Both the position numbers and the translations under genes were made by a program. This document shows positions 4,951 through 8,414 of a stretch of DNA of 64,000 nt, in pieces. The DNA is from Nocardioides luti (GTDB lineage Bacteria > Actinomycetota > Actinomycetes > Propionibacteriales > Nocardioidaceae). The DNA lies in contig NZ_JACKXE010000001.1 in assembly GCF_014212315.1 (NCBI RefSeq), forward strand, positions 3,162,001 through 3,226,000, in the 5' to 3' direction. Positions within the stretch are counted from its first letter, which is position 1, and each line of letters opens with the position of its first letter. Under the pieces are notes generated by a model that saw only the letters and a list, made by a program, of their open reading frames with translations, ran no database searches and had not been told where the DNA came from.

Positions 4951-5104
4951 TATGGTCGGGCACAGCTCATCAAGAGGGACTGAGGGAACGGCCCAGTGAA
5001 GTCCCGGCAACCGCCGCGAGCCCCCCGCCTCCCGACCATCGGAGACGGACGCGGAAACGGTGCTAATTCCGGCCCGCGGCGAGGTACGCCCCGGGGAAGA
5101 TGAG
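4951..5104 (+). promoter_or_regulatory. SAM-I (S-box) riboswitch with its promoter, controlling the threonine-synthase-like gene
   Basis: A -10 TATGGT at 4951-4956 predicts a start near 4963. The aptamer follows at 4966-5104: P1 pairs CTCATC (4966-4971) with GATGAG (5099-5104), and between them are the S-box hallmarks ATCAAGAG, CCCGGCAACC and GGTGCTAATTCC. The ribosome binding site AAGGAGG (5105-5111) starts at the base after P1 and the ATG is at 5116. This geometry suggests that SAM binding blocks translation initiation by stabilising P1 next to the Shine-Dalgarno. The class is SAM-I by its core motifs rather than SAM-IV. Confidence 0.9.
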
Positions 5105-5115
5105 AAGGAGGACGC

Positions 5116-6420
5116 ATGAGCACCGTCGTTGCCGAGCAGGCCAGCCCCACCCCCGAGTCGTCCGACTCCGGCCGGAAGCCCACGCTGCGCGAGGGCGCGT
5201 TCGGGAACGCCCGGGCGCTCACCTGCCGCGAGTGCGGCCACGAGATCCCGCTGGGCCCGCACTACGCCTGCAGCGAGTGCTTCGGCCCGCTGGAGATCGC
5301 CTACGACTTCCCCGCGGTCACCCGCGAGCAGATCGAGGCCGGCCCCCGGAACATCTGGCGCTACAAGGCGCTGCTGCCCGTGCCCGACGACATCGAGCAG
5401 AGTCCGAACATGGAGCCCGGCTTCACCCGGCTGCTCAAGGCGCACAACCTCGGCCGGACCCTCGGCATCGACAACCTGTGGGTCAAGGACGACAGCACCA
5501 ACCCCACCAACTCCTTCAAGGACCGGGTCGTCGCGTGCGCGCTGAGCGCCGCCACCGAGTTCCACTCCAAGGTGTTCGCGTGTCCGAGCACCGGCAACCT
5601 CGCCAACGCGGTCGCCGCGGCCGGCGCCCGCGCCGGGATCAAGACCGTCGTCTTCATCCCGAGCAACCTCGAGAAGCCCAAGCAGGTCAACTCGGCCGTC
5701 TACACCGACTCGCTGGTCGCCGTGAACGGCAACTACGACGACGTGAACCGCCTCGCCTCCGAGATCGCCGGCGAGGAGGACGGCTGGGCGTTCGTGAACG
5801 TCAACGTCCGGCCGTACTACGCCGAGGGCTCCAAGACCCTGGGCTACGAGATCGCCGAGCAGCTCGGCTGGCGGCTGCCCGACCAGATCGTCATCCCCGT
5901 CGCCTCCGGCTCCCAGCTGACCAAGGTGCACAAGGCCTTCCAGGAGCTGATCAAGCTCGGCCTCGTCGAGGAGAAGCCCTACAAGGTGTACGGCGCGCAG
6001 GCCGAGGGCTGCTCCCCGGTCTCGGTCGCCTACAAGGCCGGCGTCGACGCGATCCGCCCGGTCAAGCCGGACACCATCGCCAAGAGCCTGGCCATCGGCA
6101 ACCCGGCCGACGGGATCTACGTCCTCGACATCTGCCGCGAGACCGGCGGGGCCGTCGAGGACATCACCGACGACCAGGTCCGTGAGGCGATCGTGCTGCT
6201 GGCCCGCACCGAGGGGATCTTCACCGAGACCGCCGGCGGCACCACCGTCGGCGTCCTGAAGAAGCTCGTCGAGACCGGCCAGCTGGACCCGACGCTCGAG
6301 ACCGTCGTCATCAACACCGGCCACGGCCTCAAGACGCTCGACGCCGTGTCCGACCAGGTCGGACCGGCCGCGACCATCGACCCGTCGTACGCGTCCTTCG
6401 CCGCGACCGGCATCGCCTGA
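5116..6420 (+). CDS. Threonine-synthase-like PLP enzyme, probably MetM-type homocysteine synthase
   Basis: 434 residues, PLP fold type II. An N-terminal zinc-ribbon-like segment has C37-x2-C40 and C52-x2-C55. The PLP lysine is K135 in NSFKDR, followed by the phosphate-binding and Ser/Thr loop CPSTGNLANAVAA. By similarity it would be called threonine synthase (O-phosphohomoserine to threonine). However, it sits behind a SAM-I riboswitch and is followed by a sulfur-carrier gene. From memory, a threonine-synthase homologue (MetM) with a carrier (MetO) makes homocysteine from O-phosphohomoserine in Streptomyces, and the context fits that better. Function is therefore inferred from regulation and neighbourhood; canonical thrC remains possible. 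Confidence 0.85.
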   Translation: MSTVVAEQASPTPESSDSGRKPTLREGAFGNARALTCRECGHEIPLGPHYACSECFGPLEIAYDFPAVTREQIEAGPRNIWRYKALLPVPDDIEQSPNMEPGFTRLLKAHNLGRTLGIDNLWVKDDSTNPTNSFKDRVVACALSAATEFHSKVFACPSTGNLANAVAAAGARAGIKTVVFIPSNLEKPKQVNSAVYTDSLVAVNGNYDDVNRLASEIAGEEDGWAFVNVNVRPYYAEGSKTLGYEIAEQLGWRLPDQIVIPVASGSQLTKVHKAFQELIKLGLVEEKPYKVYGAQAEGCSPVSVAYKAGVDAIRPVKPDTIAKSLAIGNPADGIYVLDICRETGGAVEDITDDQVREAIVLLARTEGIFTETAGGTTVGVLKKLVETGQLDPTLETVVINTGHGLKTLDAVSDQVGPAATIDPSYASFAATGIA

Positions 6421-6438: not shown

Positions 6439-6473
6439 GGTCTCGATACGGTCGCTGCGCGACCTACTCGACC
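6439..6473 (+). repeat. REP-like palindromic element, copy 1
   Basis: The complement reads GGTCGAGTAGGTCGC-GCA-GCGACCGTATCGAGACC in outline, a stem-loop with GGTCGC/GCGACC as inner stem. The same architecture recurs at 14170-14211 with C/T and A/G changes that preserve the core, and degenerate relatives occur at 26507-26610. The form suggests a dispersed extragenic palindrome of the host genus. Confidence 0.65.
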
Positions 6474-6531
6474 AACGAACGGCGCGACCTACTCGACCAA
6501 CGAACGGCGCGACCTACTCGACCAACGAACG
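6457..6531 (+). repeat. Three perfect 25-bp tandem repeats between the enzyme and carrier genes
   Basis: Three identical 25-bp units start at 6457, 6482 and 6507; each begins gcgcgacctactcgaccaac and ends gaacg. A partial fourth copy (gcactcgaccaacgaa) follows at 6550-6565. The unit is the distal half of the adjacent REP-like element, so the array probably arose by slippage on it. It separates two genes expected to be co-expressed. Confidence 0.85.
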
Positions 6532-6577
6532 GCTCGTCCCTCACGACGGGCACTCGACCAACGAAAGAAGGGCACCG

Positions 6578-6856
6578 ATGAGCGTTTCCGTCCGGATCCC
6601 CACCATCCTCCGCACCTACACGGGCGGCGACTCCGAGGTGAGCGCCACCGGCGGGACCCTCGCGGAGGTGCTCGACGACCTCGACGCGAGCTACGCCGGG
6701 ATCAAGGGCCGGATCATCGACGAGGCGGGCCAGCTGCGCCGGTTCGTGAACGTGTACGTCGGCAGCGAGGACGTCCGGTTCCTCGACAACCTCGAGACGG
6801 CCACTCCCGACGGCACCCAGATCTCGGTGATCCCGGCCGTCGCCGGCGGTTGCTGA
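6578..6856 (+). CDS. ThiS/MoaD-family sulfur carrier protein (CysO/MetO-like)
   Basis: 92 residues with the beta-grasp pattern of ThiS/MoaD/CysO (VRIPTILRTYTGG at the start, RFVNVYVGSEDVRF in the middle, ISVIPAVAGGC at the end). Carriers are adenylated and thiocarboxylated on a terminal Gly-Gly. Here a Cys follows the Gly-Gly, so the last residue would have to be removed first, as known for QbsE-type carriers trimmed by JAMM proteases. No JAMM, MoeB-like or rhodanese gene is nearby. Start ATG 6578 has gaaagaaggg upstream. It is co-oriented with the threonine-synthase-like gene, 157 nt downstream, and probably supplies its sulfur. Confidence 0.9.
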   Translation: MSVSVRIPTILRTYTGGDSEVSATGGTLAEVLDDLDASYAGIKGRIIDEAGQLRRFVNVYVGSEDVRFLDNLETATPDGTQISVIPAVAGGC

Positions 6857-6911: not shown

Positions 6912-8414
6912 ATGTCTATCTGGGGCTCCGTCCTGCGCACCAAGGACGTCGACACCGTCATCCATCAGAACGACCCGACCGCCGACGGCGAGGAGTCGTC
7001 CGGCCTGAGCAAGCGGCTCAGTGCCCGTGACCTCACCGGGTTCGGCATCGGGATCGTGATCGGCACCGGCATCTTCACGCTGACCGGCATCGAGGCCAAG
7101 AACCACGCCGGCCCCGCGATCGTGATCTCGTTCGCCATCGCCGGCGTCGTGAGCATGCTGGCCGCCCTCTGCTACGCCGAGCTGGCCGCCGCGGTCCCGA
7201 CCGCCGGCAGTTCCTACACCTACGCCTACACGACGATCGGCGAGCTCTTCGCCTGGATCATCGCGTGGGACCTGATCCTCGAGTTCGCGCTCGGTGCCGC
7301 GGTCGTCTCGCGCGGCTGGTCGGCGTACCTCCAGGACTCCCTGGGCCTGCCGACCGGGCTCTTCGGCGAGTCCGCGCCCGTCAACGTCGGCGCGGTGCTC
7401 ATCGCCGCGGTCCTCGGGGTCGTGGCCGCCATCGGCATCCGTGAGTCGAAGTGGGTCACGAACGCGCTCGTGCTGCTCAAGGTCTCGGTCTGCATCTTCG
7501 TGATCGTGGCCGGCCTCTTCTTCATGAAGGCCGCCAACCTGATGCCGTTCGTCCCGCCGTCGAAGCCGTCGACCGACGACAAGACCGGCCTCGCGCTGCC
7601 GCTGTGGCAGTGGATCTCCGGCGTCGAGCCCACGTCGTTCGGCATCGCCGGCGTGCTGGTCGCCGCGGCCGTCGTGTTCTTCGCGTACAGCGGCTTCGAG
7701 GCCGTCGCGAACCTGGGCGAGGAGACCGAGAACCCCGGCCGCGACATGCCCCGCGGCCTGATCGGCACGCTGGTCATCTGCACGGCGCTCTACCTGCTCG
7801 TCTGCCTGGTGCTGACCGGCATGGTCAACTTCGCCGACCTCTCCGAAGGTGCCCCGATCTCGGACGCCTTCCACCAGGTGGGCCTCGGCTGGGCCGGCAT
7901 CCTGATCGGCCTCGCCGCCGTCGCCGGGCTCAGCTCGGTGATCCTCGTCGACATCGTCGCGATGGGCCGGATCGGCTACGCCCTGTGCCGCGACGGGCTG
8001 CTGCCCGCCTCGGTCGGCAAGATCCACCCGAAGTTCCGCACCCCGACCCGGATCACGATCGTCACCACGGTCGCGGTCTGCCTGCTCGGTGCGTTCGTGC
8101 CGCTGAGCACGCTCGCCGAGATGGTCTCGATCGGCACGCTCTTCGCCTTCGTCGTCGTCTCGATCGCGGTCGCCGTGCTGCGGCGCACCGAGCCGAAGAT
8201 GAAGCGACCCTTCCGCACCCCGTCGGTGCCGCTGCTGCCGATCGTCTCGGCCGCGTCCTGCATCGCGCTGATGGCCAGCCTGGCCGTCGACACGTGGATC
8301 CGGTTCCTGGTGTGGCTGGTCATCGGCCTGGTCGTCTACTTCGGCTACGGCCGCACGCACTCGGTGCTCAACCGCCCCGACGTCGACGACGCGGTGGCCG
8401 CGGCCGACCGCTGA
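6912..8414 (+). CDS. APC superfamily amino acid permease
   Basis: 500 residues with about 12-14 hydrophobic segments. The first transmembrane helix has the APC motif GFGIGIVIGTGIFTLTG, and the sequence YAYTTIGELFAWIIAWDLILE is typical of the cationic-amino-acid-transporter (CAT/YfnA) branch. It should import an amino acid by proton symport; the substrate is unknown. TAGGGT at 6898-6903 is 8 nt before the ATG with no Shine-Dalgarno, predicting leaderless expression separate from the sulfur carrier gene. Confidence 0.9.
   Translation: MSIWGSVLRTKDVDTVIHQNDPTADGEESSGLSKRLSARDLTGFGIGIVIGTGIFTLTGIEAKNHAGPAIVISFAIAGVVSMLAALCYAELAAAVPTAGSSYTYAYTTIGELFAWIIAWDLILEFALGAAVVSRGWSAYLQDSLGLPTGLFGESAPVNVGAVLIAAVLGVVAAIGIRESKWVTNALVLLKVSVCIFVIVAGLFFMKAANLMPFVPPSKPSTDDKTGLALPLWQWISGVEPTSFGIAGVLVAAAVVFFAYSGFEAVANLGEETENPGRDMPRGLIGTLVICTALYLLVCLVLTGMVNFADLSEGAPISDAFHQVGLGWAGILIGLAAVAGLSSVILVDIVAMGRIGYALCRDGLLPASVGKIHPKFRTPTRITIVTTVAVCLLGAFVPLSTLAEMVSIGTLFAFVVVSIAVAVLRRTEPKMKRPFRTPSVPLLPIVSAASCIALMASLAVDTWIRFLVWLVIGLVVYFGYGRTHSVLNRPDVDDAVAAADR

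Follow-up and report, generated by a model that had tools for sequence, protein, structure and literature searches.

Sulfur carriers with a C-terminal extension that is cut by JAMM peptidases are typified by the QbsE/QbsD system, in which the extension of QbsE is Cys-Phe and a cognate JAMM peptidase encoded in the same cluster is a defining feature. A carrier with an extra residue is also found in the HcyS/HcyD system of Wolinella succinogenes, which carries out thiocarboxylate-dependent homocysteine synthesis. In the Mec-CysO-CysM system, as described in excerpts of PMC3227635, the thiocarboxylate of the carrier CysO sits on its last glycine, mycobacterial Mec+ hydrolyzes CysO-Cys and so releases cysteine, and MoeZR, an E1 enzyme with a rhodanese domain, thiocarboxylates CysO upon co-expression in Escherichia coli. 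A further system has been found in Streptomyces, where MetM is a homocysteine synthase, the neighboring metO is a putative sulfur-carrier gene and, in S. albulus, metM is preceded by a SAM riboswitch (Hasebe et al. 2024, doi 10.1128/aem.01247-24, as cited in the excerpts of PMC12172450). According to the same excerpts, a cyanobacterial relative of MetM has threonine synthase and deaminase activity and did not seem fully MetM-like in cells (PMC12172450).

The locus described here lies in a window of 64,000 nucleotides (C1:3162001-3226000, the whole stretch of DNA that was analyzed) from Nocardioides luti. It shares with the Streptomyces metM-metO operon a threonine-synthase-like enzyme, an adjoining sulfur-carrier gene and a SAM riboswitch upstream of metM; the carrier in the window ends in Gly-Gly-Cys, and the two genes are set apart by 157 bases that contain a 25-bp tandem repeat. 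The locus resembles QbsE/QbsD in having a residue past the Gly-Gly and a JAMM peptidase in the genome, but the extension is a single Cys rather than Cys-Phe and no peptidase is encoded beside the carrier. The likeness to HcyS/HcyD consists in thiocarboxylate-dependent homocysteine synthesis, which is predicted for the window pair, and in the extra residue of the carrier, whereas the partner enzyme in the window is threonine-synthase-like and the peptidase is encoded outside the operon. With the mycobacterial Mec-CysO-CysM system, the window shares the carrier family, a carrier-Cys conjugate is the known substrate of Mec (PMC3227635, excerpts), and the genome has its own mec-cysO-cysM set at another locus. 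The carrier encoded in the window differs in being a second paralogue, located beside MetM rather than CysM.

The metM-metO-like locus

The features of the locus, in window coordinates, are the following.

4964..5106, + strand: SAM riboswitch (RF00162), the operon leader (cmscan 66.9 bits, gathering threshold 44.4)
5116..6420, + strand: metM-like gene for a threonine-synthase-like PLP enzyme of 434 aa (PALP and thrC family matches)
6578..6856, + strand: metO-like gene for a ThiS/MoaD-family sulfur carrier of 92 aa that ends in Gly90-Gly91-Cys92 (protein end PAVAGGC)
6845..6850, + strand: Gly-Gly codons GGC GGT, whose residues align with the GG at the end of 3dwg_C; Gly91 is the expected thiocarboxylation site
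6851..6853, + strand: TGC, the codon of the extra Cys92, a residue whose removal is expected to precede activation of the Gly-Gly end

Direct reading of positions 6845-6856 gives GGC GGT TGC TGA at the end of the 92-aa open reading frame 6578-6856, as claimed in an earlier note on this DNA. The Pfam ThiS profile matches residues 5-91 (48.9 bits) and stops at the Gly-Gly (Gly91), leaving Cys92 outside the model. The nearest solved structure is 3dwg chain C, the 9.5 kDa antigen cfp10A (phmmer E 3.6e-27), which we take to be CysO; this chain and the other aligned solved relative, 4n6e_B, both stop at the same Gly-Gly. The reading of the open reading frame, together with the Pfam ThiS and 3dwg_C matches, rules out a misread frame. 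A sequencing error in the last codon, which the earlier note named as a possible refutation, is ruled out as well because Gly-Gly-Cys recurs among orthologous loci, in 66 of 201 orthologues. Nor is the window carrier itself CysO, since a separate CysO is encoded with Mec and a CysM-like enzyme elsewhere in the genome; clustering with Mec and CysM, the mark of CysO, is not seen for the window carrier. The features found are those by which MetO is recognized, namely membership in the ThiS/MoaD family with a Gly-Gly, and a location directly after a non-canonical thrC-like metM with a SAM riboswitch upstream.

The best NCBIfam models name the product of 5116-6420 threonine synthase, a name under which the O-phosphohomoserine route is hidden in annotation. 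The genome encodes a second threonine synthase, the canonical thrC, in a hom-thrC-thrB group at C1:3750115, and the window protein is 32% identical to it over the matched part; it is thus unlikely that the window gene provides the threonine synthase of the cell. Given the canonical thrC elsewhere, the SAM riboswitch and the adjoining carrier, the window pair fits the metM-metO operon type, the S. albulus system being compared by description only, and the metM-like product is predicted to be an O-phosphohomoserine-dependent homocysteine synthase. This setting of the carrier gene was overlooked in the earlier note. In all 54 related loci that were scanned with Rfam (40 of 100 class-sample stretches and 14 of 80 best-relative loci), one RF00162 copy was detected at the start of metM and on its strand, whereas a simple riboswitch pattern missed most of these copies. 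The metM starts in these loci were projected from the window protein, and in 9 of the 54 the riboswitch extends 43-55 bases beyond the projected start, which we take to reflect shorter MetM N-termini there. When loci of the class sample were picked by a MetO match, MetM adjoined in 107 of 107 related loci.

The distribution of MetM was examined across 394 genomes sampled from the whole class, in which MetM, called at E <=1e-100 to the window protein, is present in 236. Matches to the MetX profile TIGR01392 were sorted by hand into absent (126 genomes; no match or best E 4e-9 to 9e-4), set aside (8 genomes, 7 of them with MetM; E 1e-25 to 1e-48) and present (260 genomes; E 3.6e-93 or better), a split that rests on the gap in E-values because no sample or control genome reached the curated cut-off of this profile. 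MetA (PF04204) is matched in 7 of the 394 genomes. MetM was found in 121 of the 124 genomes for which the searches yielded neither MetX nor MetA (the exceptions are G007, G009 and G338), as against 108 of the 260 with MetX (Fisher p 6.5e-31, uncorrected for kinship). In the genome under study, the searches detected neither MetX (best TIGR01392 E 1.3e-6) nor MetA (PF04204). The distribution of MetM and the riboswitch support, without proving, homocysteine synthesis from O-phosphohomoserine in this organism and add comparative support for this recently described route to methionine. The genome also encodes two full-length transsulfuration-type PLP enzymes (L095 and L096), and a plant-like route to homocysteine, in which they would use O-phosphohomoserine, is conceivable.

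Maturation genes and carrier tails

The genome contains a single match to the JAMM profile PF14464, at C1:1188871-1189185, about 2 Mb from metO. This mec gene adjoins those for CysO and a CysM-like PLP enzyme in a cluster at about C1:1187400-1189200, and the protein contains the sequence H-S-H-x7-S-x2-D, presumably the JAMM motif. The only ThiF-family E1 above the cut-off is encoded at C1:3616796-3617527, about 0.45 Mb from metO, and has a fused C-terminal rhodanese domain, the same build as MoeZR; another two ThiF matches score under this cut-off. The profile search of the genome thus yielded one enzyme of each kind and placed no JAMM (PF14464) or above-cut-off ThiF match within the window, in agreement with the view of the earlier note that no peptidase or E1 is nearby and that the parts needed for activation come from elsewhere. 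By contrast, its QbsE-type reading has to be dropped, given that no peptidase adjoins the carrier and that the sole PF14464 match is in a different cluster. The CysO of this genome is itself tailed (it ends in GGSRYTLA) and therefore would also need a cut after the Gly-Gly; the third ThiS-family match of the genome is a ThiS with a bare Gly-Gly end, encoded among thiamine genes.

The ends of MetO were counted over 210 loci, comprising the window, the best 80 of 344 relatives (mostly Nocardioides) and 129 class-sample loci from which L106, the window again, had been left out. After dropping the 8 loci that were picked by MetM and have no MetO, as well as L019 (a contig without MetM, the carrier of which ends in Gly-Gly-Cys), 201 MetO next to MetM with a readable end remained, the window included; these rows are not independent, as the two locus sets may share species and L062 and L066 are one strain. 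A bare Gly-Gly is found in 124 of them, Gly-Gly-Cys in 66 and another tail in 11 (3 S, 2 A, 2 SS, 2 SR, 1 AR and 1 CA), so that Cys is the first residue in 67 of the 77 tails; Ala-Gly-Gly is kept in all 201. Among the best 80 of the 344 relatives, Gly-Gly-Cys ends occur in 27 loci including L055, or in 26 of 79 without it. In the class sample, Cys-tailed MetO are spread over six family groups (f1, f15, f17, f18, f23 and f28), and tails other than Cys are confined to f1. The Cys after the Gly-Gly of MetO is optional. The claim of the earlier note that the carrier needs trimming is thus supported in part: it probably holds for the window protein, which has a residue past the Gly-Gly, but does not extend to the 124 orthologues that need none. 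The metM-metO operon was already known, whereas an optional, recurrent Cys tail on MetO is new as far as the literature was searched; no description of a Cys-tailed MetO was found in that literature, which did not include the original metM-metO paper.

For most of the bare MetO, the gene closes with GGC TGA, and for most of the Cys-tailed ones with GGC TGC TGA, the pattern expected of a 3-base duplication; the Cys most likely arose by such a codon-sized duplication at the stop, GGCTGA becoming GGCTGCTGA. On a FastTree tree of 197 rows with MetM and MetO (4 rows with short MetM were left out and the tail columns excluded), the three states bare, Cys and other require 35 changes, compared with a mean of 64 and a minimum of 55 in 500 shuffles. 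Parsimony, averaged over 300 resolutions, gives about 19 gains of Cys from bare Gly-Gly and about 8.5 losses, the direction of these changes being soft because the root is a midpoint one, and the largest clade that shares an inherited Cys tail has 9 rows. Thus, the tail is inherited yet labile, and apparently was gained many times over.

For CysO, the count covered 64 genomes of the 394-genome class sample in which CysO was readable and a Mec match lay in the same stretch, MetO loci in these stretches not being counted; G336, with a 20-residue tail and no Mec match in the stretch, was left out. Of these CysO, 21 end in a bare Gly-Gly and 43 have tails of 1 to 26 residues, Cys being the first residue in only 2 of the 43. 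An example of a tailed CysO is L008:4441-4731 (- strand), and in this respect the CysO of the class are unlike the bare-ended chain 3dwg_C. The contrast set consisted of 39 other ThiS-family matches from 25 genomes of this sample (what remains of 89 matches once a MetO and a CysO are set aside for each genome; G387 has no others), which look like ThiS and MoaD by sequence; 36 of the 39 end in a bare Gly-Gly. The three exceptions are MoaD-like carriers with the tails SR (L279, from G157), GH (L294, from G175) and GG (L300, from G016). None of the following comparisons is corrected for kinship. Tails are more frequent both in CysO (43/64) and in MetO of the class sample (45/122) than in the other carriers (3/39; Fisher p 1e-9 and 3e-4, respectively). 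MetO and CysO differ in the first residue of the tail (Cys in 67/77 vs 2/43, Fisher p 4e-20) and in the share of Cys among rows that are either bare or end in Cys (66/190 vs 2/23, p 0.009).

A JAMM match is present in 234 of the 236 genomes with MetM and in 62 of the 158 without it, PF14464 covering JAMM proteins besides Mec too. All 45 genomes with a tailed MetO and 75 of the 77 with a bare one have such a match, the exceptions being G311 and G380, both with a bare Gly-Gly and both 95% complete; because 120 of the 122 MetO genomes have a JAMM match, a test of the association between tail and Mec is nearly powerless. We also tested and rejected a link between the Cys tail and reliance on MetM. 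Among rows with bare or Cys ends, the Cys tail is found in 16 of 62 without MetX and in 23 of 49 with MetX (uncorrected p 0.03), a weakly opposite trend that does not favor a stronger need for the tail in organisms with no known route but MetM.

A proposed path from the tailed carrier to homocysteine

Taken together with the known activity of Mec, the gene content of this genome suggests that MetO-Cys is probably a pro-carrier that is trimmed by Mec, activated by the E1-rhodanese and feeds MetM. In this scheme, metO of the SAM-riboswitch-controlled operon would encode a pro-MetO with one extra Cys, which would be the covalent form of the CysO-Cys type of conjugate that Mec hydrolyzes. The one JAMM peptidase of the genome, Mec from the mec-cysO-cysM locus, would cut the Gly91-Cys92 bond, the E1-rhodanese fusion would then thiocarboxylate Gly91, and MetM would make homocysteine from that sulfur and O-phosphohomoserine. 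The C-terminal Cys makes MetO resemble a carrier-Cys conjugate, and hence Mec is the likeliest trimming enzyme. Cells would tolerate the tail, since the end of a carrier that Mec serves does not have to coincide with the Gly-Gly.

Judging by the ends of the predicted proteins, carriers served by Mec may have residues past the Gly-Gly, and carriers of no known Mec service hardly ever do; by this measure, MetO appears to behave more like a Mec-served carrier than other ThiS-family carriers. An odd last codon thus translates into a testable rule, that Mec-served carriers may be born tailed and others hardly ever. A further implication is that recombinant MetO or CysO, if Mec is missing during production, may lack activity for no other reason than an untrimmed tail. 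The three tailed MoaD-like carriers speak against this rule, the behavior of the cyanobacterial MetM relative (PMC12172450, excerpts) weighs against the scheme, and the lack of linkage between mec and metO speaks against trimming by Mec. So does the difference in tail composition, given that a shared peptidase predicts similar tails on MetO and CysO; two answers remain to the Cys bias of MetO, namely duplication at GGCTGA with little else tolerated, or a Cys that is favored on MetO.

The second answer implies selection for the Cys, either because pro-MetO would be product-like and enter the carrier pool only through Mec, or because the Cys would tune recognition by Mec; MetO-Cys would then stand in for a carrier-homocysteine conjugate, and methionine synthesis would be gated by a cysteine-pathway enzyme. 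In line with this proposal, parsimony reconstructs roughly 19 events in which a bare Gly-Gly acquired one Cys and no more, Cys tails are found in six family groups and shared by clades of up to 9, and Cys prevails as the first tail residue in MetO but not in CysO, which presumably meets the same peptidase. Yet duplicating the three bases CTG (or GCT) in GGCTGA is enough to produce Cys, some 8.5 losses are reconstructed, most orthologues have no Cys, and Cys tails tend, if anything, to be less frequent in genomes without MetX, so that we consider selection for the Cys doubtful.

Removal of the tail by a general carboxypeptidase instead of Mec appears unlikely. Such an enzyme would have only a single residue to remove from the window carrier, and its involvement would be compatible with the absence of linkage between mec and metO, but it would not require bare ends, which nearly all of the other ThiS-family carriers nevertheless have, and the CysO tails of up to 26 residues point to endoproteolytic cleavage behind the Gly-Gly. 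It is quite improbable that Cys92 is retained and that MetO works with it, for example through a persulfide on Cys92: the extra residue has a thiol group and is found again among orthologues, but it is absent from the 124 of 201 that end in a bare Gly-Gly beside the same MetM, whereas the preceding Ala-Gly-Gly is invariant. Self-activation, in which an N-to-S acyl shift at Gly-Cys would give a thioester and sulfide would convert this thioester to the thiocarboxylate without any E1, hardly merits consideration, since this shift is slow without a catalyst and the genome encodes an E1 with a rhodanese, even though the carrier ends in the kind of Gly-Cys junction that intein-based laboratory methods use to produce thiocarboxylated carriers.

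MetM loci without MetO, the spacer and the downstream gene

Among 23 loci that were picked by a MetM match, MetO adjoins in 15, and no MetO match was found in the stretches of the other 8 (L219-L225 and L230, from family groups f10, f13 and f39). Two of these, L219 and L224, were included in the riboswitch scan and both have the SAM riboswitch; in L219, an open reading frame that looks cold-shock-like by eye lies downstream.

The 157-base gap between metM and metO in the window holds, at 6457-6533, 3.1 copies of the 25-bp unit GCGCGACCTACTCGACCAACGAACG with zero mismatches, and no other copy of its 19-base core is present in the window at <=2 mismatches. An amino-acid permease gene (6912-8414) starts 55 bases after metO and may be part of the same transcript.
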